Shown here: piece by piece, positions 43,707 to 62,390 of the stretch
Layout: every line of letters starts with the position of its first letter
How positions within the stretch are numbered: the first letter of the stretch is position 1
NCBI GenBank assembly: GCA_017428055.1
Contig: JAFRRN010000012.1
Coordinates: 34,039 to 98,038, forward strand
DNA: 64,000 bases
Source: Prevotella sp.
Lineage (GTDB): Bacteria > Bacteroidota > Bacteroidia > Bacteroidales > Bacteroidaceae
Reading direction: 5' to 3'
The notes under the pieces: generated by a model
Seen by the model: only the letters and a program-made list of their open reading frames with translations
The model's database searches: none
Told to the model about the DNA's origin: nothing
Position numbers and translations under genes: made by a program

Positions 43707-43721
43707 TACAACAGTGTTAAA

Positions 43722-44158: not shown

Positions 44159-44168
44159 CTACGACCTG

Positions 44169-44570
44169 ATGAAACAACTCAATGGTGACAAGCAGATGAC
44201 GGACGTATGGCAACTGCCGGCTATTGGCCGTTGGGAGAAATCATGTGGCAAGCATCCTACGCAAAAACCTTTAGGGGTGTTGGCAAGATTGATACAAGCC
44301 AGCACCAAACCAGGGGCATGGATTCTTGACCCATTTAGCGGAAGTGCCACAACTGGCATTGCCGCAAATCTGTTGGACAGATGTTACTTGGGCTTGGAAA
44401 TGGAAATTGATTTTTTGGCTATGGGCAAAGCACGAAGAGAAGAAATTGAGAATGCAGACATTCGAAGTAACTATCTTGAACGATTAGCCAAAGCGAAAAT
44501 TATTCTGCCTCCTGACAACTTCTTTGTAGCGGACGAGACAGAAAATGATTATAATGTACCTTGGTTATAA
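44169..44570 (+). pseudogene. N-terminally truncated beta-class N6/N4 DNA methyltransferase
   Basis: 133 residues from ATG 44169; similarity seems to begin a little earlier (from about 44139). It contains the C-terminal part of the beta class: MTDVWQLPAIGRWEKSCGKH, HPTQKPLGVLARLIQAS, and motif I DPFSGSATTGIAANLL, with YLGLEMEIDFLAMGKARREE. The catalytic DPPY-type motif IV and target-recognition region, which come first in this class, are absent. So it should be inactive. It may be what is left of a second methyltransferase of the island. Confidence 0.75.
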
Positions 44571-44933: not shown

Positions 44934-44964
44934 TTTGCAATTTGATTTTTTTAGCGTAAATTTG
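44934..44964 (+). promoter_or_regulatory. Promoter of the fasciclin/SusC/SusD operon
   Basis: TTTG, 19 bases, TAAATTTG: full match to the Bacteroidetes consensus. It is 67 bp before the first gene. Since the following seven genes have gaps of 9-23 bp or overlap, it may drive a transcript of about 17 kb. Confidence 0.7.
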
Positions 44965-45030: not shown

Positions 45031-47805
45031 ATGAAAAAATTCTTCATTTGTGTCAGTCTCGTATGTATGGGGCTGATGACTTCCTGTGTGGATAAGAATG
45101 AGGAAGTAGATGCTGAGGTCAAGCCCGAGTGGCTCGGCGGCAGCATCTATGAGGAATTGCAGAAGGCCGACCAGGCACGGCTGACGGGTACGTTTGACAC
45201 GTACCTGCGGTTGGTGAACGACCTCGACTATGCAAGCACTCTGTCACGCACGGGAAGTAAGACGGTGTTTCCTGCCAACGACGAAGCCTTTGCGCGTTTC
45301 TTCCAAGACAATCCTTGGGGGGTGCGCAGCTATGAAGGCCTCTCCGAGGCACAGAAGAAACTGTTGCTCTATTCGTCGATGATCGACAACGCCCTGTTGG
45401 TTGACATGCTCTCCAATGTCAGCAACGGCAGCGGAGTCACCAAGGGACTGGCGGTGAAACACGCCACGTCGGTCAGCGTCATCGACTCCATCACCCATCT
45501 CTACGGCCCTGCCGACATGCCCAAGAACAACAACTGGTGGACCAAGTATTACAAGGGCATTGACGTGGTGAGCGACAACACGCGCCCGATGATGGTGCAT
45601 TTCACCCGTGAGCAGATGGTGAACAACTCTATTACCACCGAAGGTGACGAGAGCGATTTCTATATCTTGACGGGCGAGGCTTACAATGAGGACACCAAGC
45701 CCGCGTACGTGTTCAACGACCGTATCATCAACCGCGACGTGACATGTATGAACGGCTACATCCAGCAGTTGCAAGATGTCCTCGTACCGCCGGGAAACAT
45801 GGCGCAAGTGCTACGCTCCACCGAGGAGACGAGCATCTTCAGCCGTGTCCTTGACTATTTCGCCGCACCCTATTTCGACCAGCAGACGACCAACAACTAC
45901 AACGACTGGGCCGTCGCCAATGGCAAGAGCACCATCGACTCCATCTTCCAGGTGAGATATGTGAGCTCGCGGTCGCAGAACGGTACATTGGTAGTGGACC
46001 CCAACGGGCGCACCCTCGGCCAGGGACGTTACCTGGCATACGACCCCGGATGGAACCAATATTATCCCTCCCATGCCAACGTGTCGTCGATAGACTATAC
46101 CATCACCGACATCGGTGCGATGTTCGTGCCAGATGACGCTGCCTTTAAGACCTATTTCCTGAAGGGTGGCAATGGCGCATTCCTCATCGACATCTATGGT
46201 GACAAGGACAATACCGAGGAAAACCTGATGGAGAACCTCGACTCGCTCCATGCCCGCAACCCGCAGGTGTTGACGGCTTTCATCAAGAACTTGCAGAAAA
46301 ACTCCTTCGTGGAGACCGTCCCAAGCAAGTTCACCACCATCATCAACGACGCCTCTGAGAACATGGGCATGAATATCGGCTACCTGAAAAAGAAGGAAGA
46401 TGGCAAGTATGACATCAAGATTGCAAACAACGGCGTGATTTACATCCTGAAAGACATGCTCGCCCCCGATGAGTACCAGGCCGTGTTGGCCCCCGCCTCG
46501 TCCTATCCCGATATGCGCGTGATGAACTGGGCGATACAAGACCGCAGTTACCTCGGCGTGGACTTCCGCTTCTACCTGTTGGCAATGAGTGCCAACTATG
46601 CGTTCTTCATCCCCGACGACGAGGCATTTGACCAATACTATATTGACCCCACGTCGCTGGGACATACTCGTCCGGAAGTGCTCCATTTCTACTACGACTC
46701 CAACCGCACACCCAATATCCGTTGCGAACGCTTCTACTACAACAAGGCCGACAACACCATTGGCGAGCGCATTGGCGAGGTGTCGGACATCACGCAGCGC
46801 TCGTCGCAGCTGGTGGACATCCTGAACTATCACACCGTCTTGTTAGGCGATGGCGAGACATTAGGCAGAAACCATTATTACCAGACCAAGCACGGTGGTG
46901 CTATCTATGTGAGCAGCTCCGAACAAGGTGGGTATGTCATGAGCGGAGCGCAAATCGAAAACGAGAATATCGGCACCCCGCAGATTGAGGAGGTGTACAA
47001 TGAGAAGAACGGTAAGGCTTACCGCATCGACCATATCATACAGGCGCCTCAGCGCAGCGTGTCGCGGGTGTTGCGAGACAACAGCCAATTCTCGGAGTTT
47101 TATGAGGCATGTTCGGGCTTCTCCGCCGACAACGTCCTCTCTTGGGCGGGCATCTCTGCCGACAAGAACTCGTTTGGCACGACCGAGCAAGACCAGTACA
47201 TCGTGTTCACTTCCACATACGGCACGGGCAACAACTCCGTGTCGAATGCTTGCCTTGACGAAAACGTCAAGATGTTCAACACCTATAACTATACGCTCTA
47301 TGCGCCCGACAACGATGCCATGCAGAAGGCATACGCCGCCGGGCTGCCCCGTTGGAGCGAGATACAGGCTCTTTTCGATGAGTATGGCGATGAGGCAAGT
47401 GCCGAGGTTCGCGCCAATGCCAAGAAGATGATCAACGCCATCCGTAAGTTTGTGAGGTATCATTTCCAGAGCATCTCCCTCTATGCCGATAACGTCGTGG
47501 AGGGTGGGGAGTACCAGACGTTGGCGACGGATGAGTTAGGATTGGCACGTAAACTGGAAATCTCTGGCGGAAGCGGCATCATCAACATTGTTGACGAAGC
47601 TGGTATAAGCCACTCCGTCAATGCTAACAACGCCGAGACGGTAACCAACCAGATGGCTCGCGACTATTGGTTTAATTCCTCGCGCACGTCGGCTACGGCC
47701 ATCACGACCTCTTCATTCTGCTCCGTGCATGAGATTACAGAACCTTTCTATCTTTATAAGGATTCTTCTGGCAAGCCGACATGGGATCCTTCGTATGTCG
47801 ATTAA
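45031..47805 (+). CDS. Fasciclin-repeat lipoprotein (four FAS1-like units)
   Basis: 924 residues; lipobox in MGLMTSC (Cys19). Four FAS1 hallmark segments are visible: KTVFPANDEAFARF (about residue 77), AMFVPDDAAFKTYF (362), AFFIPDDEAFDQYY (523) and YTLYAPDNDAMQKA (752), with later strands such as IDHIIQAPQRSVSRVL between them. FAS1 domains mediate adhesion or ligand binding. As a lipoprotein in a SusC/D operon it is probably on the cell surface and may bind glycan or glycoprotein. It is the first gene, nine bases before SusC. Confidence 0.85.
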   Translation: MKKFFICVSLVCMGLMTSCVDKNEEVDAEVKPEWLGGSIYEELQKADQARLTGTFDTYLRLVNDLDYASTLSRTGSKTVFPANDEAFARFFQDNPWGVRSYEGLSEAQKKLLLYSSMIDNALLVDMLSNVSNGSGVTKGLAVKHATSVSVIDSITHLYGPADMPKNNNWWTKYYKGIDVVSDNTRPMMVHFTREQMVNNSITTEGDESDFYILTGEAYNEDTKPAYVFNDRIINRDVTCMNGYIQQLQDVLVPPGNMAQVLRSTEETSIFSRVLDYFAAPYFDQQTTNNYNDWAVANGKSTIDSIFQVRYVSSRSQNGTLVVDPNGRTLGQGRYLAYDPGWNQYYPSHANVSSIDYTITDIGAMFVPDDAAFKTYFLKGGNGAFLIDIYGDKDNTEENLMENLDSLHARNPQVLTAFIKNLQKNSFVETVPSKFTTIINDASENMGMNIGYLKKKEDGKYDIKIANNGVIYILKDMLAPDEYQAVLAPASSYPDMRVMNWAIQDRSYLGVDFRFYLLAMSANYAFFIPDDEAFDQYYIDPTSLGHTRPEVLHFYYDSNRTPNIRCERFYYNKADNTIGERIGEVSDITQRSSQLVDILNYHTVLLGDGETLGRNHYYQTKHGGAIYVSSSEQGGYVMSGAQIENENIGTPQIEEVYNEKNGKAYRIDHIIQAPQRSVSRVLRDNSQFSEFYEACSGFSADNVLSWAGISADKNSFGTTEQDQYIVFTSTYGTGNNSVSNACLDENVKMFNTYNYTLYAPDNDAMQKAYAAGLPRWSEIQALFDEYGDEASAEVRANAKKMINAIRKFVRYHFQSISLYADNVVEGGEYQTLATDELGLARKLEISGGSGIINIVDEAGISHSVNANNAETVTNQMARDYWFNSSRTSATAITTSSFCSVHEITEPFYLYKDSSGKPTWDPSYVD

Positions 47806-47814
47806 ATAGGAGGA

Positions 47815-50800
47815 ATGAAAATGAATAACCTAATGAGAAAGATATTTATCATCGCTTTGCTCTGCTCCATCACGCAAGTGATGATGGCACAGAAGCGTAT
47901 CTCGGGAACGGTGAGCGACAATATGGGACCGATCATGATGGCAAACGTCGTGGAACGTGATGCCAACAACCGTATTGTCTCCGCCGCCCAGACGGATGTC
48001 AACGGTAACTTCTCGATGGAAGTGAAGAGTGACAAGAACAAACTGGTGGTCTCCTTCGTGGGCGACAAGACCAAAACGATTCCCATCGGCAACCAAGAGA
48101 GCTTTGACATCGTGCTTGAGCCAGAGTCTACGACCCTGCAAGAGGTGACGGTCAAGGCAACGCGCACCGGCTCCGGCGGCCTGTTTATTCCCAAGAGGGA
48201 GATTTCCGTTGCCCAGCAGACATTCAACATGGAGTCTGTTGAAGGCCTATCGTTCACCTCTGCCGATGAGGCGTTGCAAGGTGAGATTGCCGGTCTTGAC
48301 ATTGTGAGCAATTCCGGAAACCTCGGTGCCGGTACAACGATGCGCCTCCGTGGTGTCACCACCATCAACGGAAATGCCGAGCCTCTGATTGTTGTCGATG
48401 ACAAGATTTTTGACAACCCCGATGAAACCTTTGACTTCGCCAATGCAAACGAGGAGCAATATGCCTCGCTCTTGTCGGTGAACGTGGAGGACATCGCGTC
48501 TATCACGGTGTTGAAAGATGCCGCTGCTACGGCAGTGTGGGGTGTGAATGGTGCCAATGGTGTCATCCAGATTACCACCAAGCGTGGTGCGAGGGGCAAG
48601 ACGCGCGTGAACTTCTCCTATAAGTTCACGGGTACTTGGCAACCCGATGGCTACGAACTGTTGAATGGCGACGACTATACGATGTTGATGAAGGAGGAGT
48701 TTTATAATCCCTCCCAGGCATCCAATGCCACTACCAGCATCGCGGAGTTGAACTATGACCCCAGTTGGGCGGAGTATGAGAATTGGAACAATAACACCGA
48801 CTGGGTGAAGGCCGTGAAGCAGTTTGGACAGATGCACTCGTACAACATGAACCTCAGCGGTGGCGGCCAGAAGGCACGTTTCCGTATATCCGCGGGATAT
48901 GACCACCAGACAGGCTCCATCATCAAGCAGAAGCTCGACCGTTTCTCCACCCGCCTCGTGTTGGACTACAATGTCAGCGACCGCATCCTGTTCTCCACCA
49001 ACTTTGCATTGACCTATACCAATAATTTCCAGAATTATAGCGGGTTGTTAGGCATCGCGCAGAAGTTGGCTCCCAACATGAGCATCTACCGACAGAATGC
49101 CGATGGCACAGACACAGACGAATACTACTTGATGAACCCCACGGCTCCCACGGGAAGGACACCTTATTCTGGAAACTACTCTTCGAGCCAATTGGAGTCT
49201 ATACGTAGCTTGGGTAACCCTATCGCCATTGCCAACCTGGCGTGGAAGAAGGACCAGACCTACCGCATCACACCCGACTTCGCCGTGAAGTATGAGTTGC
49301 TCGGGACGGGCGAGGGGCAACACCGCCTGACATTCAACGGACGTGTGGACTTCGACATCTACGCGCGGAGCGTACCAACCTATCATCCTGCAGCCATGTC
49401 TACCGATAACTGGACGACGACGGGCTACAACGCCAGCAGCAATTCCGAGTCTAACCGCCTGAAGATTGGGGCAAGGGCAGAGTTGCAATACACTCCATAT
49501 TTCAAGAATGCAGACCTAACTGCCACGATGCTTTTGCGCTATGAGTTGAGTACGTCGAAGAGCAACTCGCAGTATATCTCGCAATATGACCTGCCCGATG
49601 GCATCACATCACCAACGATTGACGGTGTGCTTCCTACAAGTAAGGACGTGAACGGCAGCGCGGGAATGTCGAGTGGCAATAGCCGTTCCAACTCTCAGAA
49701 CTGGCTTTACAACGGCCACTTCTCCTACAAGGGAATCTATAATGTCGGCTTATCCGTCCGCGCCGATGGCAATTCCAAGTTTGGCCCGAAAAACAAATGG
49801 GCTTATTTCCCCGGCGTGAGTTTGAGATACAATATCATTGACGAGCCATTCATGAAGAAGATTAAGGGCAAGACCCTTTCTATGTTGGGACTCCGTGCCT
49901 CATGGGGTATCAATGGTAAGGCTCCCGATGCCGACTACCTGTTCTATTCCACTTACAACACCAGCGCAGGGTCGTATGGTGTAGGTACCACAGCTCTCAC
50001 CACGGCTTCCATCGATGGATTGAAGCTTGATGACTTGCGTTGGGAGAAGACTACATCCTACAACCTTGGTGCCAACTTTGGATTCCTTAATGACATGCTC
50101 GAAGTGGAGTTTGACTACTACCACAAGGAGACGAAAGACCTATTGATGTCAAGCGTCCGCATCCCTTCGACGACGGGTTATTCCAAGGTGTCATACGCCA
50201 ACGTGGGACAGATGAACAACGACGGTTGGGAAATGAACATCAATGGCCGCCGCTTCATTAAGATTGGGAAGTTCTCGATGGATGCAGGCATCAATGTCGC
50301 CCAAAACTTCAACGAGATTAAGGAGATGGACCAACGTGTGCTGGATGCCATCAACTCGGAATGGAGTGCCACGACAAGGCCCACCAACAAGAACACTACG
50401 GGCTACCTGAACCGTGTGCAGGTGGGAAATGCCCTTGGGTCTATCTATGGATTCCGCTACAAGGGCGTTTACCAATACAGCTATGACTATTTGGAGAACT
50501 ACCAAAAGGAACATAACCTCAATGCCACCGAATACGAGGCATGGATTAACAGCGAGTTGGCAAGCGGCAAGACGTTCCCCATTGTGCTGGGGTCTGATGG
50601 CAAGGTGCTTATGACCAGCCAAGGTCATCCCCAACACCTTGTATATAATTATGACGGCAACAGCGCCACGTATACTTTCCAAGGAGGTGATGCCATGTAT
50701 GAGGACATCAACAACGACGGACAGATCAACGCCCTTGACATCGTATACCTTGGCAATTCACAGCCCAAGGTGCAAGGTGGTTTCAACTTCTCCTTCCGTT

Positions 50801-51252
50801 ATGGACGATGGAGTTTGAAGACCCGTTTTGCCTATCGCTTTGGTAACAAGGTCGTCAACCTCGCCCGTCTCAACTTGCAGGAGATGTTTAATACCTATAA
50901 CCAATGTGCCACAGTCAACTATCGTTGGCGCAAGGATGGCGACATCACGCCGATGCCGCGTGCCATGTACAACTCTGGTTACAACTTCCAGGCTTCCGAC
51001 CGCTACGTGGAGAATGGCTCATTCGTGCGTTTCAACAACTTGCAGCTGGCTTATACGTTTGACAAGAAATTGATTAAGAAATGGGGACTGAACCAATTGC
51101 AGCTCTATCTCTCAGTCAATAACCTCTATTGCTGGACGAAGTATAGCGGCACCGACCCAGAGATCTCCACCAGCGGCTGGGGATTGGCGGTCGATGACTC
51201 GCAGACCCCGCGTTCCAAGTCGTTTACGGCAAGTATCAATATCGGATTCTAA
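47815..51252 (+). CDS. SusC/RagA family TonB-dependent transporter (first)
   Basis: 1145 residues. Signal peptide (IIALLCSITQVMMAQ), carboxypeptidase-D-like N-domain (KRISGTVSDNMGPIMMANVV), plug with TTMRLRGVTTINGNAEPLIV and TVLKDAAATAVWGVNGANGV, then a 22-strand-type barrel ending in phenylalanine (TASINIGF). It would import oligosaccharides through the outer membrane with TonB energy and its SusD lid. RBS AGGAGG lies just before the ATG; a second in-frame ATG is two codons on. Substrate unknown. Confidence 0.96.
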   Translation: MKMNNLMRKIFIIALLCSITQVMMAQKRISGTVSDNMGPIMMANVVERDANNRIVSAAQTDVNGNFSMEVKSDKNKLVVSFVGDKTKTIPIGNQESFDIVLEPESTTLQEVTVKATRTGSGGLFIPKREISVAQQTFNMESVEGLSFTSADEALQGEIAGLDIVSNSGNLGAGTTMRLRGVTTINGNAEPLIVVDDKIFDNPDETFDFANANEEQYASLLSVNVEDIASITVLKDAAATAVWGVNGANGVIQITTKRGARGKTRVNFSYKFTGTWQPDGYELLNGDDYTMLMKEEFYNPSQASNATTSIAELNYDPSWAEYENWNNNTDWVKAVKQFGQMHSYNMNLSGGGQKARFRISAGYDHQTGSIIKQKLDRFSTRLVLDYNVSDRILFSTNFALTYTNNFQNYSGLLGIAQKLAPNMSIYRQNADGTDTDEYYLMNPTAPTGRTPYSGNYSSSQLESIRSLGNPIAIANLAWKKDQTYRITPDFAVKYELLGTGEGQHRLTFNGRVDFDIYARSVPTYHPAAMSTDNWTTTGYNASSNSESNRLKIGARAELQYTPYFKNADLTATMLLRYELSTSKSNSQYISQYDLPDGITSPTIDGVLPTSKDVNGSAGMSSGNSRSNSQNWLYNGHFSYKGIYNVGLSVRADGNSKFGPKNKWAYFPGVSLRYNIIDEPFMKKIKGKTLSMLGLRASWGINGKAPDADYLFYSTYNTSAGSYGVGTTALTTASIDGLKLDDLRWEKTTSYNLGANFGFLNDMLEVEFDYYHKETKDLLMSSVRIPSTTGYSKVSYANVGQMNNDGWEMNINGRRFIKIGKFSMDAGINVAQNFNEIKEMDQRVLDAINSEWSATTRPTNKNTTGYLNRVQVGNALGSIYGFRYKGVYQYSYDYLENYQKEHNLNATEYEAWINSELASGKTFPIVLGSDGKVLMTSQGHPQHLVYNYDGNSATYTFQGGDAMYEDINNDGQINALDIVYLGNSQPKVQGGFNFSFRYGRWSLKTRFAYRFGNKVVNLARLNLQEMFNTYNQCATVNYRWRKDGDITPMPRAMYNSGYNFQASDRYVENGSFVRFNNLQLAYTFDKKLIKKWGLNQLQLYLSVNNLYCWTKYSGTDPEISTSGWGLAVDDSQTPRSKSFTASINIGF

Positions 51253-51266
51253 GAAAGGAGGACAAG

Positions 51267-52994
51267 ATGAAAAAGTATTTATATATAATATGTGCGACCA
51301 TGATGATGGTATCGTGTATCGATACCGTGATCTTGCCCGATGACAAGACAGTGGATGAGGACTTCTGGAAGACCAAGTCGGATGTGTCGTTGATGGTGGA
51401 GGGTGCCTACAAGTCGATGGTTTCATCGGATGTCATCAGCCGACTCATCGTCTGGGGCGACTTCCGCTCCGATGAGCTGTTGCCCGTCAGTTCCATCTCG
51501 TCGAATGCCACGGTCAATGCCCTCAATGAGATTGATGCCCAGAACACGCAGACAGACAACACCTTTGCGTCATGGGCATGCCTCTATTCTGTGATAAACA
51601 ATTGCAACATTGTACTTGACAAGGCGGAGGGCGTGATGTCTATCGACCCCTCGTACACCGAGGGCGACTACCAGACCGACCGCTCACAGATGTTGGCGTT
51701 GCGGGCGTTGTGCTACTTCTACTTGGTGCGCAACTTCCGCGACATCCCCTATAACGCACATGCTTACATGACGAGCAGCGAGGAGATGAATATCCCGCAG
51801 TCGAACCCCGACTCCGTATTGCAATGCTGCATCAACGATCTCGTGGAAGCAGAGAAATCAGCCCTTGACCCGACCGCGTTCTCCGACTGGAAGAGGGTGG
51901 GGCATATCAACCGCGATGCCATCGACGCCATGTTGGCGGACATCTATCTCTGGAGAGGCTCGGTGATGCACAGCGATGCGGATTACATGAAGTGTGTTGA
52001 GTATTGCGACAAGGTGATTGAGTCGAAGAAACTGCAACATGTCCCTGGCCGCAACGAGGTGGTCGTGAAGGAGTATCCCCTTGCTGACGGCACCCAGGCT
52101 TTTACCAATATCTTCATTGACCAGAATGCTGAAGAGAGTATCTTTGAGCTGCAATTCGACGGAAGGAACAATTCCAATGTCGCTCTTTGCCAGTATCTCT
52201 ATAAGTATCGTAATACCAACTCACCGAATGGCTACATGAAAGCCTCCGCCATCTTCGGCACGGTAGGCAGTGGCGCAGCCGTCTACACTCAGACGGGCGA
52301 CTATCGCTATTTGCAGAACTGCTATGCTGTCGGTACGGGAGCGGACGCTTACGATGTGCGCAAGATGGTGACGCAGATGGAATGGAACATCAACAACCCC
52401 GTCGGTATGTCGGGACAGTCAAGGCAAGCAGACCGTGCGTATGACAACTTCGCACAGAATTATATCTTCTACCGCCTGTCAGACGTGATGCTGATGAAAG
52501 CAGAGGCAGAGACTGCGCTGGCGTCAGACAACAACGACCCGCAGCTGCGTGACGCTTTCAACCTCGTGCAATATGTCAATAGCAGGAGCATCTATAGCGG
52601 TAGTTTAGGCAATGACTCTTTGAAATGGAGCTATTACAACACCAAGGCTTCCATGGAGACATTGGTCTTGCAAGAGAGACTGCGCGAGCTATGCTTTGAG
52701 GGAAAGCGTTGGTATGACCTCCTACGCTATAACTTCCGCCATGTGGACGGCATCGACTATACAACAATCCTCGCCGCACAGGAGGATGCCGGCAAAACAT
52801 TCGTGCGCAACGATGCCAACATGTTGAACTGGGCAACGCGCAAATACACCTCGGGAGCCGCCGCTGCGGCATCGAAGATGCGTACCGAGCCTTATCTCTA
52901 CATGCCCATCAACCAAAGCGACATTGATGTGAACGCTTTGTTGCGTCAGAATCCTGCATATAGTGATGCCGATGAGTATAAAAAGAACTATTAA
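51267..52994 (+). CDS. SusD/RagB family lipoprotein (first)
   Basis: 575 residues; lipobox MMVSCID (Cys17). SusD traits: DEDFWKTKSDVSLMVEGAYK, AQNTQTDNTFASWACLYSVINNCN, the TPR-like LALRALCYFYLVRNFRDIPY, RDAIDAMLADIYLWRG, and near the end LQERLRELCFEGKRWYDLLRY. It forms the ligand-binding lid on the preceding SusC, 14 bp upstream, with RBS AAGGAGG. Confidence 0.95.
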   Translation: MKKYLYIICATMMMVSCIDTVILPDDKTVDEDFWKTKSDVSLMVEGAYKSMVSSDVISRLIVWGDFRSDELLPVSSISSNATVNALNEIDAQNTQTDNTFASWACLYSVINNCNIVLDKAEGVMSIDPSYTEGDYQTDRSQMLALRALCYFYLVRNFRDIPYNAHAYMTSSEEMNIPQSNPDSVLQCCINDLVEAEKSALDPTAFSDWKRVGHINRDAIDAMLADIYLWRGSVMHSDADYMKCVEYCDKVIESKKLQHVPGRNEVVVKEYPLADGTQAFTNIFIDQNAEESIFELQFDGRNNSNVALCQYLYKYRNTNSPNGYMKASAIFGTVGSGAAVYTQTGDYRYLQNCYAVGTGADAYDVRKMVTQMEWNINNPVGMSGQSRQADRAYDNFAQNYIFYRLSDVMLMKAEAETALASDNNDPQLRDAFNLVQYVNSRSIYSGSLGNDSLKWSYYNTKASMETLVLQERLRELCFEGKRWYDLLRYNFRHVDGIDYTTILAAQEDAGKTFVRNDANMLNWATRKYTSGAAAAASKMRTEPYLYMPINQSDIDVNALLRQNPAYSDADEYKKNY

Positions 52995-53010
52995 CAGAAG
53001 GTTGTGAATT

Positions 53011-55071
53011 ATGAATAAGACGATATTTAAATCAGGATTAGCGTTGCTTGTTGCTTCCTTGGCTTTCGGCTCATGCAACAAGGAACCCGACGAGTCAAAC
53101 CTATATACCTTTACGGGGGAGACGGTGGAGTCTTTCATCCAGAAGGATAGCGACTTGACATCTTTCAATTATATCCTCTCCCGGGTGAGGCTTGACCGCA
53201 TGATGGCATCGTATGGTCAATATACATGCTATGCGCCCACCAATGAGGGTGTGAGGTTGTATCTTGACAGTTTATGGAATGACCCCGAGGCAGTGGTGCC
53301 GCACAACAGCATGACGGAGAATTCCCTTGAGGGGCTTTCCGATTCTCTCTGCAATGACATTGCCCGTTACCATCTCACCAATGGCTTATACAGCATCATC
53401 GAGATGGGAGGTAGTGGCGCAACGATTTCCACGATGCTGGGTCGCCCCATCTCTTCCAAAGTGGACTCCTTGGGACAAACGGTACTCAATGAGGTGTCGG
53501 TCATTATCAGCGAGGACAACGAGGTGACCAATGGCCTGGTACACAAGGTCAACAGGGTTGTGCCACGCTCCTCGCGTCTGCTCGGCGACACCTTTGAGCG
53601 GTTGGAGGAGTTCTCCATCTTCAGCGAGGCATTGCAACGCACGGGCTTGGCAGACTCTGTCGCACAATCGTCCAAGAACATCGTTTACACGAAACCCGCC
53701 GACTGTACTGATACCAATGGTAGCGAGTTGTATTGCCCGACGGAATGTAAGGTTGGATATACCATCTTCGCCGAGAGCGACGAGGTGTTCCGTGCCAATG
53801 GCATCAATAGTTTCGATGACCTGGTGCAATATGCCAACAATGTGTATGCCAACGCCCCGCAATGGTACGACTACATGCGGGAGTTAGGACTGACGGTCAG
53901 CACGGGGAACGATTACACCAACCGTTTTAATGCCCTCAACATGTTCGTGGCATACCATATCCTATATGCGTCGATGGCACAAGATCAATTGGTCTTTGAG
54001 GACAAGGCGGGTGTCCCCGCTGGCACGGACAAGTGGAACTATGTCAACGGTGCCGACCCCTACGACTATTATGAGACGATGCTCCCCAATACTTTGATGA
54101 AGATATGGGAGCCGCAGCCTGGCAAGACCCTGTACATCAACCGCTATCGCACATTTAACACGTTGACCGACGAGGTGGGCACGCAAGGCAACAACCACCA
54201 AGTCATCGAGCATGGTGTTGTCATTGAGCGTCGTGACATCTCGGCTTACAATGGTTATATCCATCCCATTAGCAAGCCGTTGGTGTACAATGCACAGGTT
54301 CCCAATGGCGTGTTAAATGAGCGTCTGCGTTTCGAGGCGACAACCTTCCTGCCCGAGTTCATCAACAATGGATTCCGCTATCTCTATATGAACGAGGTGT
54401 CTGCCATGAATGGTGGTGGCAGTGGGGCGCGTCTGGCATTCCCCACGGATTTCTTTGACGGTGTGGTTTGCTACAATGGGGAGCAATCAAAACTGAGATA
54501 CAATATCAAGGGTGACTATCGCGCCTACCAAGCCGATGCCTTCCAAGGATGGGGACAGTATGACCTCGCCGTTAAGTTGCCCCCAGTGCCGTCAGGCATC
54601 TATGAGTTCCGCTTGTTCTATTCACCGATGGGCCATGGCGGCATGATGCAGTTCTATTATGGCACTTCCAAGGATGTGCAGAAAATGATTGCGCTCAGCA
54701 TACCTCTCGACGTGCGTATCCAAGAGACCGACCCGCGTATCGGCTGGACATCCTTCTACGAGGAGGATGATTTGGGTATTGCCACCGACGAGGCCATGCG
54801 CAACCGTGGGTATATGCGCGGTCCGTACTCTTTCTGCGGACACCCCGGCGATGACGGCGATACCAAGACCACGAAGAACTGCCGTGGCGATGGTGTGGTG
54901 ACACTCCGCCGTATCTTGGGCCGTGTCAACATCAAGCAGAGCGAGGACTTCTGGTTCCGTTACAAGAACGTTATCAATGATGATTCTGACCTCAAGTGGC
55001 AGCTCGACTTCGTAGAGTTCGTGCCTATCAGTGTCTTGGATAACGACCAATATTCTGAGGACTGGTATTAA
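53011..55071 (+). CDS. Fasciclin-domain lipoprotein (two FAS1-like units)
   Basis: 686 residues; lipobox in LAFGSCNKE. FAS1 segments: SYGQYTCYAPTNEGVRLYL (about residue 68) and VGYTIFAESDEVFRANGI (about 248). The last ~250 residues (from PEFINNGFRYLYMNE) are a beta sandwich with VKLPPVPSGIYEFRLFYSP, similar in style to carbohydrate-binding modules. Starts 16 bp after SusD and is followed by another fasciclin gene after 21 bp. Position in a SusC/D operon suggests a surface glycan-binding role. Confidence 0.82.
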   Translation: MNKTIFKSGLALLVASLAFGSCNKEPDESNLYTFTGETVESFIQKDSDLTSFNYILSRVRLDRMMASYGQYTCYAPTNEGVRLYLDSLWNDPEAVVPHNSMTENSLEGLSDSLCNDIARYHLTNGLYSIIEMGGSGATISTMLGRPISSKVDSLGQTVLNEVSVIISEDNEVTNGLVHKVNRVVPRSSRLLGDTFERLEEFSIFSEALQRTGLADSVAQSSKNIVYTKPADCTDTNGSELYCPTECKVGYTIFAESDEVFRANGINSFDDLVQYANNVYANAPQWYDYMRELGLTVSTGNDYTNRFNALNMFVAYHILYASMAQDQLVFEDKAGVPAGTDKWNYVNGADPYDYYETMLPNTLMKIWEPQPGKTLYINRYRTFNTLTDEVGTQGNNHQVIEHGVVIERRDISAYNGYIHPISKPLVYNAQVPNGVLNERLRFEATTFLPEFINNGFRYLYMNEVSAMNGGGSGARLAFPTDFFDGVVCYNGEQSKLRYNIKGDYRAYQADAFQGWGQYDLAVKLPPVPSGIYEFRLFYSPMGHGGMMQFYYGTSKDVQKMIALSIPLDVRIQETDPRIGWTSFYEEDDLGIATDEAMRNRGYMRGPYSFCGHPGDDGDTKTTKNCRGDGVVTLRRILGRVNIKQSEDFWFRYKNVINDDSDLKWQLDFVEFVPISVLDNDQYSEDWY

Positions 55072-55107
55072 TCAATAGACAGTAAATCACTAATGATTGA
55101 CAAGGAT

Positions 55108-56814
55108 ATGAAAGTGAATAAATATATAGGTGTGATGATGGCAGCTACCATGCTTGCTGCCTCATCATGTACCGACTTCGATGATTACAATGAGGTGCCG
55201 ATGGATGTCAATGCCACAGCCGACAATACCCTTTGGGAGAACATCTCGCAGAACGGAAGCCTTTCCAATTTCCAGAGCATCATCAAGAAGGTCGGCTTTG
55301 ATGCGGCATTGCAACAGTCGCATTTCTATACCGTGTGGGCACCATTAGATGGCACGTATGATGCCAATGCCCTCCTTAACCAGGATGATGCGACCGTGCT
55401 CTATCGGTTTGTGAAAAGCCATGTGGCGGAATACAACCACCTCGTGTCTGGTTCCATTGACGAGCGTGTTCATGCGCTCAACGACAAGAGTTTCCTCTTT
55501 GAGGGGAATGGCACATACAAATATGCCGATGTGGATGTGGCGCAAACAAATCTCCCGAGCATCAATGGTGTCGTCCACACCCTGCAAGGTGCCGCTACGT
55601 TCTATCCCAACATCTATGAGTATATCTTCCAGCGTGAGGGTATCGACTCCTTGGAGCAGTATTTCAAGAAGTATGAGAATGTTTACCTTGATGAAAGCAA
55701 CAGCGTCGTAGGACCTACGGTGAATGGTAAGCAGACCTACATTGACTCCGTGATGATTACCACCAACTCACTGTATGGCTCGCTCAATGCCCGTATTGCC
55801 CATGAGGACTCCTCGTATACGATGATTATGCCTACCAATGAGGCATGGGTGAAAGCGTATGATAAGATTAAGCCATATTATAATTATATACAGACAACCA
55901 TCGCCCAAGATGTAGATGCCGCCGTATCGGCGACTTCTGTTCCTTCAACGACGGTAACGATTGACAATGTCTACATGGCTGACTCGCTGACTAAGCGGTC
56001 TATCATCAATAACCTGGTATTCAATAACAACAATGAATACAACCGATGGGTGGAAGACCCCACTGCCATATATACAGACACGCTGCGCACGACCACCCGT
56101 AACAAGCTTTCCAACCCACAGGAAATCCTGGCACAGACCAAGGACAAGGAGAGGATGAGCAATGGTTATGCGCGCATCGTTGACTCGCTCGCCATTTTGC
56201 CTTGGGAGGGTTGGGCGCCCGAACTTGTCATCTCTCCCATCGGAAGGTCTGTCACTTGGAATGGGTCTAACCACATTGTGCAGGTCAATAATCCAGACCC
56301 CACCAAGGGAACGTTTGAATATGGATACATCAGTTATCTCTGGGTAGAACCCACCAGCAATTATTCAAAGCCCGAGCTTGACATCAAGTTGCCCGGTGTG
56401 TTGTCGACGACCTACAATCTTTATTGTGTCATTGTTCCACCCAATGTGGATTCTACCGATACCTTGACGGAGGTTCGTCCCAACCAGCTTAACTTCGACT
56501 TGAGCTATTGTAACGAGAAAGGCGCATTGCAACAGACATGGACAGGAACTAACCACACCACGACCACCAGTGCGCATTTCGCCAAGCAATTGGTCAACGA
56601 CACATCGAAGGTTGATACTATGTTTGTCGGTACGATTAAGTTTCCCATTGCCTATCTTGGCTTGGGGGAGAAAATGTATCCTAACTTGAAGATTACCACG
56701 GACTTTAGCGTATTTAGTCCCTTGATGAAAACATACACTCGTGATTTGCGCATCGCCGCAATTATCTTAAAGCCCGTGGAAAAGGACGAATATCAAGCAA
56801 CTAAGGAGGAATGA
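55108..56814 (+). CDS. Fasciclin-domain lipoprotein (two FAS1-like units)
   Basis: 568 residues from ATG 55108 (MKVNKYIGVMMAAT); an in-frame ATG at 55093 adds five residues and spoils the signal. Lipobox LAASSC. FAS1 segments: FYTVWAPLDGTYDANALL (about residue 70) and YTMIMPTNEAWVKAYDK (about 236). The last part (from ELVISPIGRSVTWNGS) is beta-rich. Its TGA overlaps the ATG of the second SusC, which means translational coupling to that transporter. Confidence 0.8.
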   Translation: MKVNKYIGVMMAATMLAASSCTDFDDYNEVPMDVNATADNTLWENISQNGSLSNFQSIIKKVGFDAALQQSHFYTVWAPLDGTYDANALLNQDDATVLYRFVKSHVAEYNHLVSGSIDERVHALNDKSFLFEGNGTYKYADVDVAQTNLPSINGVVHTLQGAATFYPNIYEYIFQREGIDSLEQYFKKYENVYLDESNSVVGPTVNGKQTYIDSVMITTNSLYGSLNARIAHEDSSYTMIMPTNEAWVKAYDKIKPYYNYIQTTIAQDVDAAVSATSVPSTTVTIDNVYMADSLTKRSIINNLVFNNNNEYNRWVEDPTAIYTDTLRTTTRNKLSNPQEILAQTKDKERMSNGYARIVDSLAILPWEGWAPELVISPIGRSVTWNGSNHIVQVNNPDPTKGTFEYGYISYLWVEPTSNYSKPELDIKLPGVLSTTYNLYCVIVPPNVDSTDTLTEVRPNQLNFDLSYCNEKGALQQTWTGTNHTTTTSAHFAKQLVNDTSKVDTMFVGTIKFPIAYLGLGEKMYPNLKITTDFSVFSPLMKTYTRDLRIAAIILKPVEKDEYQATKEE

Positions 56815-59800
56815 CCATGAAAAGTATCATTTATCATATAGGGCAGAGTAAAGGCTTCAGGCTCATCCTCTGCATTCTCGCAATCAGCTTATCCGCCCCC
56901 GTATTGGCGCAAGACGACGAAACGGAAGAGGTGGAGACTTCCATCAAGCAGCCCGTCCGTAAGAAAGTCAACACGACGAGCTATCCCATGATGACACTCA
57001 AGGGCGAAGTACTTGACCAAGCCAGCAAGAAGCCTCTCGCCGGTATCCAGCTTCGCACGCTCGGCAACGAGATGTATACCGCCATGACAAAGGCCGATGG
57101 GTCGTTTGTCATCAAGGTACCCACGTTCACCACCAGTCTCTTTGTGCATTCACCTTCGTTCCTGTCGCAACAGGTTGCCGTTAATGCCAACGACTCGTTG
57201 CAGCACATTCGCATTTTCATGTTGCCCGACGCTTATGGTAAGATGTATGACGATGCTACCGAGTATACCGCTACCAATGGCTTTGTTGTTGATGGGCATT
57301 CCGTGACTATCGACAATGAGATTGCCAACAATATGGGGGCGGACATTCATAGCATCATCCGTTCTGCCGCCCCCGATGCTGGTGCCTCCATGTTCATTCG
57401 TGGCTTCAACTCTTTGAATGCCAATGCACAGCCACTTATCGTGATTGATGGCATCGAGCAAGACATGCAGCAAAATCGCGCCTCATTGCATAGCGGGCAA
57501 TTCAACAACATCCTTGCCAATATCTCCCCAGAAGACATCGACGAGGTGAAAGTGCTGAAGAATGCCACCGCACTCTATGGTGCCCGTGGTGCCAATGGCG
57601 TGATATTGATTTCCACGAAGCGTGGACATTCCATGGCGACACGTATCGATGCCAACATCTATGCTGGCGTGAGCCTCGTTCCACAGCTCCCCACAATGAT
57701 GAATGCGCGGCAATATCGCACATACGCAACGGAGATGTTGGGAACGGTTAAGGCCAATACCGACCGCAACACCCCTATCCAATATCGTTTCCTCAACGAT
57801 GACCCCGCAGGATATTACTATCATACGTATCACAACGATACAGACTGGTCTGACTATGTATACCGCACAGCCATCAGTCAGAATTACAGCATCAACGTAC
57901 AAGGAGGCGATGACATCGGCATGTACAACCTTTCCGTTGGTTACATGGATGCACAGTCTACGGCCAAGAAGAATGACTTTAACCGTATGAATGTGCGTTT
58001 CAACACCGACATCAATATCTTGTGGAACTTGAAGACAAAGTTTGACATCTCCATCAGCAGGACAAACAACAACGTCTTCGATGATGGCGCACCAGCCGAT
58101 TTCGATGCTGCTGCCATCACCTCTCCCACATTCCTGTCGTTGATCAAGTCGCCATTGGTGAGTCCATACCAGTATAATGCCATCATTGGAGGATTCTCAT
58201 CGTTGTTGAGCGACTATGATGACATCTTTAGCCAGTTGGGCGATGATTATTCGTTGGCCAACCCGGTTGCCATCCTCGCCAATTCAAAAGGCGATAACAA
58301 GAACAAGGCAGAAAATACCTACTTCAATGTGCGGGTGGAGCCCACCTTCACTTTCAATGACAACCTGAGCATCACCACGATGTTCAGCTATAACCTCGAC
58401 CGCAACTCCCAGCGCTATTACCGGCCATATACGGGAATGCCGCCGTTTGAGATTAGCGACCTGGGACGTGTCACGAGTATGACGGCATCACTCTTCTCCA
58501 AGGAAATCAATGTGGTGAGCGATACCCACCTTGACTGGAATCGTAAATTTGGCCGCCATACCCTTGGGGCTTTCGCTGGTTTCCGTTACACTTATTTCTC
58601 ATTCGATGACAATGACCTCAAGACGGAGTACACGGGATATACCAATGACAAGAACCCCGCTTTGAGTTCCACGACGGGCTATCAACACATCTCTGGCTCC
58701 AATGACGTGTGGAAGAACATGCGCTGGTATGGCAATGTGGATTACAATTACATGAACCGCTACTTTGCAACAGTGTCATTGTCTGCTGAGGCAAACAGCC
58801 GCTTCGGAGAGAATGCGGGTGGCCTGAGCCTTGCGGGAGTCCGTTGGGCCTTGTTCCCCAGTGTTCAACTTGGATGGGTATTGACGAATGAGAAGTGGTT
58901 TCCCAAACATGCTGGCATTAACTACCTCCGCCTACAAGGAGGCTTTGACATGAGTGGCAATGATGACATCAGCAATTATGCTGCCCGTACAAGCCTTTCC
59001 GCCGTGCGTTACAATTATATCGCAACAGGTCTACAGCTTACCAATATCGGCAACGATGAAATCAAGTGGGAGACCAGCAAGAAGTTCAACATCGGCTTCA
59101 AGAGCTACCTGTTGAACAACCGTGTGGGCATTGACTTCAACTATTACATCAGCCGCACGTCCGACTTGCTGACGATGATGACATTCGAGAACCCCATCGG
59201 AGGTATCAACACCTATTGGACCAACGGGGGTGAATTGGAGAACCAAGGCTTTGAACTCGCAGTCACTGGCAAGCCCATCGTCAGCAAAGACTGGCATGTA
59301 GAGGTTGGCGCAAGCATGGGTCATTATGTCAATAAGGTGAAGAAACTGCCCAATGGCGATTATACCACGTCGGTCTATGGCGACAACAACATCCTTACAT
59401 CCGTGGGAAATCCGGTGGGATTGTTCTATGGATATAAGACAGAGGGCGTGTTTGCCACTGATGCCGAGGCACGCGCCGCCGGCAAGAACGGTTATCTCTA
59501 TATGGAGGATGCCGCTGGCAACCCCAATAACTTCGTAGCTGGTGATGTCCATTTCACCGATACCAACAATGATGGCATCATCAACGAGGGCGACAAGGTC
59601 ATTATTGGCAACCCCAACCCAGACATCTTTGGCAACATCTTCGCCTCTGTCAATTGGAAAAACTTCACTTTGGGCCTTTCATTCAATTACAGCCTCGGCA
59701 ATGATGTGTATAATTACCAACGCTCTGTTCTCAATAGCGGCAGCACATTCTACAACCAGCAGGTTGCAGAAGTGGGACACTGGCGTTATGAGGGACAGCA

Positions 59801-60113
59801 GACAGACCTACCACGCCTCGCCTTTGATGACCCAATCGGGAACAATCGTTTCAGCGACCGATGGATAGAGGATGGTAGCTATCTGCGCCTGAAGACCCTC
59901 AAGCTTACTTACCGTGTGCCAATACCAGGCAGTTGGACAATGTTGCAAGGACTCTCCATCTGGGCACAAGCCAACAACTTGTTGACTTTCACCAAGTATT
60001 TGGGAAGTGATCCGGAGTTCAGTATCGGAAACTCCGTACTCTACCAAGGCATTGACTGTGGCAACCTCGCACAGGGTCGTTCTTTCCAGTTTGGAGTCAA
60101 TATCAACTTGTAA
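56811..60113 (+). CDS. SusC/RagA family TonB-dependent transporter (second)
   Basis: 1100 residues from the overlapping ATG 56811; ATG 56817 is an alternative. Signal segment (LILCILAISLSAPVLAQ), N-domain (LKGEVLDQASKKPLAGIQLR), plug with SMFIRGFNSLNANAQPLIVI and VKVLKNATALYGARGANGV, barrel end FQFGVNINL. It differs strongly from the first SusC, so the two pairs probably bind different ligands or different parts of one glycan. Confidence 0.95.
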   Translation: MTMKSIIYHIGQSKGFRLILCILAISLSAPVLAQDDETEEVETSIKQPVRKKVNTTSYPMMTLKGEVLDQASKKPLAGIQLRTLGNEMYTAMTKADGSFVIKVPTFTTSLFVHSPSFLSQQVAVNANDSLQHIRIFMLPDAYGKMYDDATEYTATNGFVVDGHSVTIDNEIANNMGADIHSIIRSAAPDAGASMFIRGFNSLNANAQPLIVIDGIEQDMQQNRASLHSGQFNNILANISPEDIDEVKVLKNATALYGARGANGVILISTKRGHSMATRIDANIYAGVSLVPQLPTMMNARQYRTYATEMLGTVKANTDRNTPIQYRFLNDDPAGYYYHTYHNDTDWSDYVYRTAISQNYSINVQGGDDIGMYNLSVGYMDAQSTAKKNDFNRMNVRFNTDINILWNLKTKFDISISRTNNNVFDDGAPADFDAAAITSPTFLSLIKSPLVSPYQYNAIIGGFSSLLSDYDDIFSQLGDDYSLANPVAILANSKGDNKNKAENTYFNVRVEPTFTFNDNLSITTMFSYNLDRNSQRYYRPYTGMPPFEISDLGRVTSMTASLFSKEINVVSDTHLDWNRKFGRHTLGAFAGFRYTYFSFDDNDLKTEYTGYTNDKNPALSSTTGYQHISGSNDVWKNMRWYGNVDYNYMNRYFATVSLSAEANSRFGENAGGLSLAGVRWALFPSVQLGWVLTNEKWFPKHAGINYLRLQGGFDMSGNDDISNYAARTSLSAVRYNYIATGLQLTNIGNDEIKWETSKKFNIGFKSYLLNNRVGIDFNYYISRTSDLLTMMTFENPIGGINTYWTNGGELENQGFELAVTGKPIVSKDWHVEVGASMGHYVNKVKKLPNGDYTTSVYGDNNILTSVGNPVGLFYGYKTEGVFATDAEARAAGKNGYLYMEDAAGNPNNFVAGDVHFTDTNNDGIINEGDKVIIGNPNPDIFGNIFASVNWKNFTLGLSFNYSLGNDVYNYQRSVLNSGSTFYNQQVAEVGHWRYEGQQTDLPRLAFDDPIGNNRFSDRWIEDGSYLRLKTLKLTYRVPIPGSWTMLQGLSIWAQANNLLTFTKYLGSDPEFSIGNSVLYQGIDCGNLAQGRSFQFGVNINL

Positions 60114-60166
60114 AGATTAAAAGGTTAAAAAATTAAATGATTAAAGAACTAAAAGATAAGACAATT

Positions 60167-62017
60167 ATGCGACGAATCAGAATTTTAATATTTGCATTTT
60201 TTAATGTTTTAATTTTCTCCTCTTGCTCCGACATGCTCGATACAGATAGCACTCGCCAGCTCTTTGACAAGGAACTTAATAGCAAGACCGACTCCGTGTT
60301 CTTCGGCTTTGGCGTGATGCAAGCCATGCAACAGCTGGCTGACCAGTATGTCTTCCAAGGGGAAATGCAAGGTGACTTGGTGAAAACAACGTTCTACACC
60401 GACAACAACCTACGACAGCTCGCCAACTTCTCGGCAACGACAGCCAACAAGTACGATAGCGCATACGTCTACTATCGTGTCATCAACAACTGCAACTATT
60501 ACATTGCACACCGCGACACGACGCTCCGCACGGGAAGCACCAATGTGGTCATCAATGAGTATGCAGCCATTAAGGCGTTCCGCGCCTGGGCTTATCTGCA
60601 ACTGGCAAGGGTATATGGTAAGGTGCCGTTCTTCACGGAACCCTTGGTCACCATCTCGCAAATCAACAACAGCAACTATCCACAGCTTGACATTCAGGGT
60701 ATCGTGGCGCAGTTGGCTCCAGACTTAGAGGAATATTCCGGGCTCCCCGTACCTAACTACGGCGTGACTTCTGGCAACATCGGGTCTACCAACTGGGGAC
60801 AAACCAAGCGTATGTATCCCACCCTTTGCTTCATCCCCGTGGATGTCATCCTCGGCGAGATGTATCTTGAGGCGGGCGATTACGACAAGGCGGCACGTCA
60901 TTACACCACTTACCTCACGGATGTGGCTCCCGATCCTGACCGTCGGTATGCGCAGTCGATGACTTCTGGTCTGCGTCTCCGTACCCGCAACGATATGGAC
61001 ATGTTGCCGTCCGACTATGACGGCTCGGTGGCCGGTATATCCTGGAGTTCTGTCTTCAATAACAACTCCGTGACCGACATCATCTCTTACATCCCCATGG
61101 CGGTGAATAGTCTGCGTGGTGTTACCACCAATGTGCCGTTGGCATTTGGCTACAATTATTATTCGACGTCGAATGCCATTGACAGTTTGCGAGTCGATGA
61201 GATACAGATTGCGCCATCCGATGCCTATACGACGCTTTCTGACAGTTCTGAGTATTATTATTATAAGCAAGTGACGGGAGGTTTGCGCCAGCAGTATGTC
61301 AACAATGCCAAACTCGGTGACATGCGGTTGCGTAGTACCATCACGCAAGGGGAGGGTGAGGACTCTACAAAACAATGGATTACAAAGTTCAATAATGGCA
61401 ACATTATCCTGTACCGCACCTCGACAGTCTACCTCCATCTTGCCGAGGCATTCAACCGCCTGGGATATATTGATGCAGCCTTTGCCATTCTGAAAGACGG
61501 CATCACGGCATCGTTGCTTGACTCGGCACGTACCTATATCACCGATGATACACGTCGGCTCCTACAGACAACTTACCCGTTCCTGTCAGACGAGAACATC
61601 TCAAAGTTCCCAGTCCAGACCACCAACAATTACACTTCCACCAACTATGGTATTCACCAGCATGGTGCGGGAGTGGTAGGCGATGGCAACTATCCGGGAC
61701 GTTCCGCATACCAGCTTGATAGCATCGTAGGCCTGAAGATGAAGGAAATTGCCAACATCTATGGTGTCAATGTGGGTACTACCAAGCAAGACAGCATCAA
61801 TGCCTTGGAGGATATTCTCTGTGATGAGTATGCCTTGGAGTTCGCATTCGAGGGAAACCGCTACTATGACCTGTGCCGTATGGCACGGCACAAGAATGGG
61901 ACGGGAACACCTTATGGCGACAATTTCGGCAGCATCTGGCTCGCAAGGAAGTTGCAATACAAGAATCCACAGAAGTCGTTGCTCATCCCTGACAACTGGT
62001 ATCTGCCATTCCAGTGA
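60167..62017 (+). CDS. SusD/RagB family lipoprotein (second)
   Basis: 616 residues from ATG 60167 (MRRIRILIFAFFNVLIF); ATG 60137 would add ten charged residues before the signal peptide. Lipobox FSSC. SusD traits: VIINEYAAIKAFRAWAYLQL-like helix, RVYGKVPFFTEPL, DVILGEMYLEAGDYDKAARH, and LCDEYALEFAFEGNRYYDLC. Ends the operon, with a terminator about 30 bp after the stop. Lid of the second SusC. Confidence 0.94.
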   Translation: MRRIRILIFAFFNVLIFSSCSDMLDTDSTRQLFDKELNSKTDSVFFGFGVMQAMQQLADQYVFQGEMQGDLVKTTFYTDNNLRQLANFSATTANKYDSAYVYYRVINNCNYYIAHRDTTLRTGSTNVVINEYAAIKAFRAWAYLQLARVYGKVPFFTEPLVTISQINNSNYPQLDIQGIVAQLAPDLEEYSGLPVPNYGVTSGNIGSTNWGQTKRMYPTLCFIPVDVILGEMYLEAGDYDKAARHYTTYLTDVAPDPDRRYAQSMTSGLRLRTRNDMDMLPSDYDGSVAGISWSSVFNNNSVTDIISYIPMAVNSLRGVTTNVPLAFGYNYYSTSNAIDSLRVDEIQIAPSDAYTTLSDSSEYYYYKQVTGGLRQQYVNNAKLGDMRLRSTITQGEGEDSTKQWITKFNNGNIILYRTSTVYLHLAEAFNRLGYIDAAFAILKDGITASLLDSARTYITDDTRRLLQTTYPFLSDENISKFPVQTTNNYTSTNYGIHQHGAGVVGDGNYPGRSAYQLDSIVGLKMKEIANIYGVNVGTTKQDSINALEDILCDEYALEFAFEGNRYYDLCRMARHKNGTGTPYGDNFGSIWLARKLQYKNPQKSLLIPDNWYLPFQ

Positions 62018-62047
62018 CATCATTATTAGCAATATGCCATTACAAGC

Positions 62048-62090
62048 CAAAGCCTCTTGCGCATCAAAGCGCGAGGGGCTTTGCTATTTA
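62048..62090 (+). terminator. Terminator of the SusC/D operon
   Basis: Stem CAAAGCCTCTTGCGC / GCGCGAGGGGCTTTG (15 bp with two G-T pairs), six-base loop, followed by CTATTT. It separates the transport operon from the lyase gene. Confidence 0.75.
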
Positions 62091-62179: not shown

Positions 62180-62390
62180 CATCCGAAAAGAAGACTATTG
62201 GAAAATCTTGTTCGCTAAGATAAAATTCATAATGTTTTTGTATAATTCAAATCGGGTTGTCGTGAGACAGCCCATTTTGATTATCCCCTTTCTCTCCTTA
62301 TATGTATGGAATTAGAGGAAATAAATCAGGATTGTTGGTTTTTCAATGTTGAATTGGTTTAATGATGTCTTCTGTTGTCAAGTTTTTTTG

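Follow-up and report, generated by a model that had tools for sequence, protein, structure and literature searches.

A conserved seven-gene locus of Prevotella combining two SusCD pairs with three fasciclin-domain lipoproteins

Gut and environmental Bacteroidota take up carbohydrates mainly through SusCD systems. In the 64,000 nt of Prevotella sp. DNA analysed here (assembly GCA_017428055.1, contig JAFRRN010000012.1, positions 34,039 to 98,038, forward strand; hereafter the window), two SusC-SusD pairs are interleaved with three lipoproteins carrying fasciclin (FAS1) domains, which raises the question of what these lipoproteins do beside the transporters and why both pairs are kept together. 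We found that the seven genes recur in the same order in many genomes, and we consider, with fair confidence, that they encode an outer-membrane glycan-uptake machine, in which two cooperating SusCD pedal-bin transporters of ancient duplication would work with three surface FAS1 lipoproteins replacing the SusE/F-like surface glycan-binding proteins (SGBPs).

The seven-gene block and its conservation

Seven + strand open reading frames (ORFs) lie head to tail between positions 45031 and 62017:

45031..47805, +, FASa: lipoprotein with four FAS1-type domains, 924 aa (Pfam, lipobox-like Cys)
47815..51252, +, SusC1: SusC/RagA TonB-dependent transporter, FAS1-associated clade 1, 1145 aa (TIGR04056, tree)
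51267..52994, +, SusD1: SusD-family lid lipoprotein, 575 aa (Pfam)
53011..55071, +, FASb: lipoprotein with two FAS1 domains (residues 36-427) and a predicted C-terminal beta-sandwich (432-673) resembling a carbohydrate-binding module (CBM), 686 aa (Pfam, structure model)
55093..56814, +, FASc: lipoprotein with two FAS1-type domains and a C-terminal region without assigned fold, 573 aa (Pfam, paralogue)
56811..60113, +, SusC2: SusC/RagA transporter, clade 2, sister of SusC1, 1100 aa (TIGR04056, tree)
60137..62017, +, SusD2: SusD-family lipoprotein, 626 aa (Pfam)

The intergenic gaps along the block are, in order, 9, 14, 16, 21, -4 and 23 bp, the FASc stop and the SusC2 start overlapping by 4 bp; the gene order and the spacing of 9-23 bp or overlap, as described in an earlier note on this DNA, were borne out by the ORF list and by family profiles. 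SusC1 and SusC2 matched TIGR04056 with 686 and 596 bits (cut-off 368), and a SusD-family lipoprotein (PF07980/PF14322; PF07980 E values of 2.5e-21 and 5.2e-11) stands beside each. NCBIfam names SusC1, SusC2 and, weakly, SusD1. The Pfam Fasciclin family (PF02469) matched FASa, FASb and FASc with 62.9, 53.4 and 41.9 bits (E values of 4.2e-17, 3.8e-14 and 1.4e-10), the curated cut-off being 22.

Conservation of the order in other genomes, whose absence together with separate transcripts would have spoken against the earlier note, was found both within the Prevotella group and beyond its order, in the rest of the class. A scan with the FASb profile confirmed at least 502 relatives, and the best 80 of these, nearly all from the Prevotella group and mostly metagenome bins, were taken as the locus set; isolates among them were Hallella seregens, Xylanibacter muris, X. 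rodentium, Marseilla massiliensis, and Prevotella sp. P3-122 and MGM1. The exact seven-gene order was present in 62 of the 80 loci. Two others carried an extra FASb, two had FASa or FASc split in two frames, 12 were collinear but ended by a contig or locus edge, and two were lone FASb genes.

Three samples of genomes were then compared, with counts that are lower bounds, as the best two candidates per genome were scored in the order and phylum samples and the best five in the family sample. Among the 393 genomes of the order sample, the FASb profile matched 83, many via FAS1 alone, and the SusC1 profile (E up to 1e-200) gave 62 matches in 44 genomes. All 62 have FAS1 neighbours: for 54, tables of FASb and SusC1 matches placed a FASb-profile match on the same contig within 15 kb, and the other eight, inspected singly, had FAS1 genes nearby in every case. 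Because FAS1-associated SusCs went into the profile and the threshold was strict, this result ties the SusC1 class to FAS1, not every similar SusC. In the phylum sample (395 genomes), SusC1 matches were obtained in nine genomes besides the window's own (10 matches), all of the same class and of a different order; each of the 10 is immediately preceded by a FAS1 gene and immediately followed by a SusD. FAS1 scores of incomplete genes were low there and rose once whole genes were scored. Eight of the ten show the complete seven-gene order; the remaining two have six genes, with one FAS1 gene missing and the second SusC shortened. A SusC1-class match was also found in 97 of the 151 genomes of the family sample. 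All seven full-length components stand in the canonical order in 86 of 86 loci, a count that holds full sets only and in which at least one place (L079/L104) is present twice.

Variants were also noted. The six-gene form (FAS1-SusC1-SusD1-FASb-short SusC of about 930 aa-SusD) was seen at L142, L143 and L148, in three genomes of different families, and permuted cassettes with the same component classes, e.g., with FASa last or FASb before FASa, at L106, L107 and L116. Locus L117 has a second FASb after SusD2, L187 is without FASb, and solitary FASb genes lie outside any cassette at L021:5025-7103, L069:9965-12016 and L095:9935-12046.

Within the window's genome, PF02469 gave 17 matches in 14 reading frames, 13 of which lie within SusCD cassettes. 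The seven-gene order recurs on contigs C51 and C67 (where the edge of the examined stretch truncates SusD2) and is kept as far as SusC2 on C83; partial cassettes stand at the ends of C42 (SusC1 onward, much diverged) and C90 (FASa-SusC1). The fourteenth frame, on C106 (L021:5025-7103), is a lone FASb preceded by genes for a GH36 alpha-galactosidase and a BspA-type leucine-rich repeat protein. FAS1 cassettes hold 11 of the 26 SusC genes of the genome, counted as 25 above the TIGR04056 cut-off plus the partial one on C90.

The two transporter classes have diverged, with SusC1-SusC2 cross-scores of about 250-400 bits vs about 450-2000 bits within each class. A tree that also included 15 non-FAS1 SusCs from this genome recovered SusC1 and its variants as monophyletic (26/26, support 1.0), likewise SusC2 and its reduced forms (27/27, support 0.992), and joined both classes in one clade (support 0.996). 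The addition of three more SusCs from other genomes left this grouping unchanged, and two low-scoring sequences within the SusC2 clade proved to be the SusC2 genes of cassettes L147 and L149. As SusC1 and SusC2 are sister clades apart from 18 other SusCs, the simplest history would be one duplication of a FAS1-SusC-SusD unit that predates the split of the orders of the class, both copies having been retained together. The outgroup is small (18 sequences), and a SusC from elsewhere could therefore still break the sister relation. Mirror-tree correlations, intended to reveal contact pairs, were 0.95-0.98 for all component pairs; the highest partial correlations (SusC1-SusC2, 0.59; SusC2-SusD2, 0.53) are suggestive only and were not used as evidence. 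Agreement of gene-tree clusters was mixed, with lowest adjusted Rand values of 0.08, 0.58, 0.82 and 0.62 and means over all component pairs of 0.67, 0.81, 0.95 and 0.79 at 2, 3, 5 and 8 clusters, respectively.

Transcript signals and properties of the FAS1 lipoproteins

The Bacteroides promoter consensus is TTTG-N18-24-TANNTTTG. The signals flanking the block were as follows:

44934..44964, +, Bacteroides-type promoter match TTTG-N19-TAAATTTG, 66 bp before FASa (consensus match)
about 62045-62085, +, strong hairpin directly after SusD2, likely transcription terminator (-29.2 kcal/mol, z -5.1)
62254-62273, second hairpin, from the terminator scan

The consensus matched twice in the window vs 1.24 times expected by chance, and a single match is weak alone. 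In the 86 full loci, matches were counted from 250 bp upstream to 60 bp inside each gene start, with an expectation obtained by resampling each stretch with its own base steps. The motif was found around the FASa start in 28 of the 82 related loci with enough sequence, where 1.8 were expected, which indicates that the excess before FASa is real. Around the six inner-gene starts it was found in 0, 2, 1, 0, 1 and 1 of 86 (5/516 in total; 1.6 expected); as most of this inner sequence is coding and its G+C content is higher (0.44-0.46 vs 0.35 before FASa), fewer chance matches arise in it. The FASc-SusC2 gap in the relatives, measured on the longest possible frames, has a median of 2 bp and is at most 60 bp in 86 of 86 loci; for the remaining inner gaps, medians are 18-32 bp and 69 to 82 of 86 are at most 60 bp. 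A scan of the window for sigma-70-type promoters showed no excess (29 matches vs 24.8 in shuffles), and neither did terminators (16 vs 16.0). The single transcript proposed in the earlier note is strengthened by the comparative promoter counts and stays unproven; one operon of seven co-transcribed genes is the best reading of these signals.

The two FAS1 domains of FASb were confirmed in the structure model, so that the FAS1 fold, whose absence would have spoken against the earlier note, is predicted for this protein. In FASa, Pfam finds one Fasciclin stretch in the window protein; a profile-profile comparison among FASa segments was too weak as proof of four repeats, and the question was settled better by a Pfam scan of distant orthologues, nine of ten of which hold three to four Fasciclin stretches and the tenth two. 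FASc likewise shows one stretch in the window protein and two in the C51 paralogue, the second being weak (21 bits alone).

FASb and FASc each possess an extra C-terminal region of about 200-250 aa without FAS1 match, which the earlier note did not mention. The best structural neighbours of the predicted FASb beta-sandwich are xanthan lyase modules, at moderate Z scores of 9.4 and 9.1. The profile of this region gave no match among PDB sequences at E up to 10, including MiXBM, the Microbacterium xanthan lyase module (PDB 7EHG), so that the likeness to xanthan-binding modules is one of fold only. The 50 listed structural neighbours of FASb include no SusE/F or SGBP structure, which excludes nothing. 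Pfam (E up to 0.1) detected only Fasciclin, and no SusE/F-type domain, in the three FAS1 proteins, apart from one sub-threshold BapA_N match in FASc. Judged by its sequence, FASa has no CBM-like extra domain, and a structural or docking role would fit it better than glycan binding. The statement that FAS1 lipoproteins take the SusE/F-like places in a SusCD operon is supported. That they are, as such, the glycan binders finds no support in that wording, the sole hint in its favour being the resemblance of the FASb C-terminal sandwich to xanthan lyase modules.

A lipobox-like Cys lies near the start of each of the five lipoproteins of the block. According to a crude pattern, it was present across the 86 loci in 74 FASa, 85 SusD1, 77 FASb, 80 FASc and 76 SusD2 proteins, and at least two acidic residues stood just behind it in 63, 21, 70, 71 and 61, respectively. 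In lipoproteins of Bacteroidota, acidic residues behind this Cys act as a surface-export signal. As such residues follow the Cys, the FAS1 proteins are likely to be surface-exposed.

Neighbouring genes and possible substrates

Two neighbours of the operon in the window deserve attention:

32973..35795, +, CBM4_9 protein whose C-terminal tail resembles a type IX secretion signal (Pfam, homologue in locus L027)
62427..64000, +, PL4-like rhamnogalacturonan lyase, running off the contig, likely with its own transcript (Pfam; TATTTTTG box just upstream, read by eye)

The first of these proteins matches, at 58% over 620 aa, the product of the gene directly upstream of FASa in L027, whereas in the window about 9 kb separate its gene from the operon. 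Because the L027 homologue adjoins FASa, the segment 35894-44570 looks like an insertion. This segment holds a DUF6057 gene, a PD40 gene, a MutH-like gene, a C5 cytosine methylase and, as a fifth element, a fragment of 169 aa whose match is limited to the end of the N6_N4 methylase profile. Restriction-modification-like genes were observed upstream of three FAS1 cassettes of the genome: MmeI-type on C90 and N6 methylase on C51 (at L023:6868-9756 and L018:4-1216), and MutH with C5 methylase in the window (40562-44570).

A same-strand gene of at least 250 aa lies directly upstream of FASa in 51 of the 83 loci that begin with FASa. When the type IX secretion tail motif of Prevotella was used as a pattern, tails were detected in 15 of these 51 genes with a strict version and in 29 with a looser one, written after the strict-pattern tails had been seen. 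In two control sets of downstream genes with intact 3' ends, the strict pattern matched 2/38 and 3/59, and the loose one 0/38 and 3/59. Pfam reported a sorting domain in only three of the 51. Such tails are rare in downstream genes, and their presence in the upstream ones suggests a type IX-secreted partner of the FAS1-SusCD module.

The PL4-like lyase is a carbohydrate-active enzyme in the locus, and esterase, glycoside hydrolase (GH) and polysaccharide lyase (PL) families appear near the relatives. We scanned 65 of the 81 candidate downstream genes of relatives together with the window's own; among the matches listed, which cover 25 of 77 families, GDSL and BD-FAE-like esterases were found in 8/66 each, GH115 in five, PL11 in four, and GH67, GH28, GH43 and melibiase in two each, beside unrelated ones, among them DNA repair polymerases (IMS) and sensors. 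Of 80 candidates from distant genomes, 61 were scanned; among the matches listed, which cover 25 of 118 families, the GH2 N-terminal domain was found four times, GH43 and SASA esterase three times each and arabinofuranosidase twice, together with four further TonB plug domains, two SusD, two Fasciclin and unrelated genes. Among the paralogue cassettes of this genome, GH98 lies directly upstream on C67, and a DUF4859 gene nearby on C83.

With the PL4-like lyase directly downstream, rhamnogalacturonan is our best guess for the substrate of the window copy. RNA-seq of rumen relatives has indicated unnamed polysaccharide utilisation loci (PULs) most induced on rhamnogalacturonan, which may or may not be the FAS1 module (PMC11107044). 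A single substrate for the module was dropped as an explanation, as the neighbouring enzymes vary among loci. A restriction to uronic-acid-bearing glycans, suggested by PL4, PL11, GH115, GH67 and GH28 neighbours, was also set aside, since GH98, GH36 and GH2 neighbours speak against it. As the enzymes differ across relatives, the import block seems to be a chassis re-used for several, mostly plant cell-wall, glycans.

Proposed mechanism, rival explanations and known systems

In the glycan-uptake machine that we propose, FASb and probably FASc would be surface glycan-binding proteins that reach out to hold the polysaccharide. Their tandem FAS1 domains would form a stalk docking on the SusCs and their distal C-terminal domain would contact the polysaccharide, a proposal that draws on the resemblance of the anchor-FAS1-FAS1-CBM-like layout to the levan SGBP. 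FASa, with FAS1-type domains alone, would most likely be a scaffold on SusC1; which FAS1 protein pairs with which SusC we infer from gene position only. A surface enzyme would cleave the chain, and the two SusCD pairs would take in the pieces. More tentatively, the module may be one obligate hetero-assembly, a double-barrel utilisome in which SusC1D1 and SusC2D2 are non-interchangeable, lie side by side and are held and supplied by the three FAS1 lipoproteins. It would represent a second class-wide SusCD architecture, different from the known utilisomes with their single SusCD type and Ig-type binding proteins. This architecture would serve a range of glycans and, in many Prevotellaceae, be linked to a type IX-secreted protein whose gene lies directly upstream. 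The placing of both pairs in one hetero-assembly is the boldest and most testable part of this mechanism.

It is also conceivable, if rather unlikely in our view, that the two SusCD transporters of the block work independently, each on other oligosaccharides from one polysaccharide, and have no more than a promoter in common, with the FAS1 proteins serving one or the other. Such an arrangement is well precedented, since a chitin PUL has two SusCD pairs whose SusDs differ functionally, according to the available text (PMC5127042), and xusABCD and the arabinan PUL likewise have two pairs in the account at hand (PMC8002723); the divergence of SusC1 from SusC2 seen in their cross-scores fits it as well. 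However, the pairing persists across orders and beside different enzymes, with FAS1 neighbours kept throughout the order sample, which argues against a substrate-specific reason, since a pairing kept on such grounds should have been lost more often.

As FAS1 domains have a known part in adhesion, the lipoproteins could instead be cell-surface adhesins that attach the cell to plant or host matter or to neighbouring cells; the SusCD genes would then be passengers, and no glycan would be captured for import. The apparent lack of an extra binding domain in FASa is in line with this idea, as is the FAS1 protein of a Flavobacteriaceae symbiont, read as an adhesin in the available part of its description (PMC10199937). 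We nevertheless regard it as improbable: all but one of the 14 FAS1 frames of the genome sit in SusCD cassettes, SusC1-class matches never occurred without FAS1 in the order sample, and the predicted FASb C-terminus is a CBM-like sandwich. RagAB, a SusCD relative, imports peptides, and both SusCs have RagA among their sequence matches in the PDB; in several cassettes the stretch examined shows no gene on the same strand directly downstream, and many neighbour genes match no listed carbohydrate family. Import of a non-carbohydrate cargo, such as peptides or glycoconjugates, nonetheless appears highly improbable when the commonest named downstream families are glycan esterases, hydrolases and lyases, including the lyase of the window, and when GH98 stands beside a paralogue and GH36 beside the lone FASb.

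If the glycan-uptake machine proposed here is real, a sizeable share of Prevotella-like import capacity would run through a machine absent from the SusCD papers examined, as 11 of 26 SusCs lie in FAS1 cassettes and 97 of 151 family genomes carry a SusC1-class transporter. Seven-gene conservation across orders gives the testable claim that two SusC types and three FAS1 proteins form one complex, and the module offers a sequence handle by which loci of this kind can be found and assigned. Cultured carriers exist (H. seregens ATCC 51272, X. muris, X. rodentium and M. massiliensis).

Searches of a library of open-licence PMC papers brought up no description of the conserved seven-gene FAS1-SusCD module, and one in a subscription journal is possible. 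Within that literature, a single paper (PMC10199937), seen in its available part, brings FAS1 or fasciclin together with SusC and SusD; within this scope, the view that the design is little described is supported. Gramella portivictoriae, which belongs to the same phylum, has a PUL in which a figure legend labels a FAS1 protein; the available text holds this label alone and no statement on two SusCD pairs or on function (PMC4891872).

Multi-FAS1 proteins of the TGFBIp/periostin type are animal extracellular matrix proteins and, unlike those described here, have no SusCD partner. The FAS1 lipoproteins resemble SusE/SusF-type SGBPs in operon position, lipidation and presumed surface exposure and differ from them in their Pfam domains. 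Two SusCD pairs per locus also occur in xusABCD of P. bryantii and the arabinan PUL of B. thetaiotaomicron (PMC8002723) and in the chitin PUL of F. johnsoniae (PMC5127042); compared by description, the available accounts of these loci do not mention FAS1 proteins. The levan and dextran utilisomes of B. thetaiotaomicron likewise combine a SusCD core with surface lipoproteins encoded in one operon, and the levan SGBP, which docks through a SusC loop and has a lipidated N-terminal Ig-like domain, a central one and a distal domain for glycan binding, is close to the layout predicted for FASb (PMC7618045). According to the available text of that paper, in which the words fasciclin and FAS1 do not appear, those utilisomes have one SusCD type, Ig-like spacers and a surface glycoside hydrolase in the complex. 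The present system has two SusC classes, three FAS1 lipoproteins and no enzyme inside the operon. SusCD systems, two-pair loci and FAS1 domains are thus each known, and we rate the seven-gene FAS1-SusCD unit as a new, widespread and strongly conserved variant of SusCD import.

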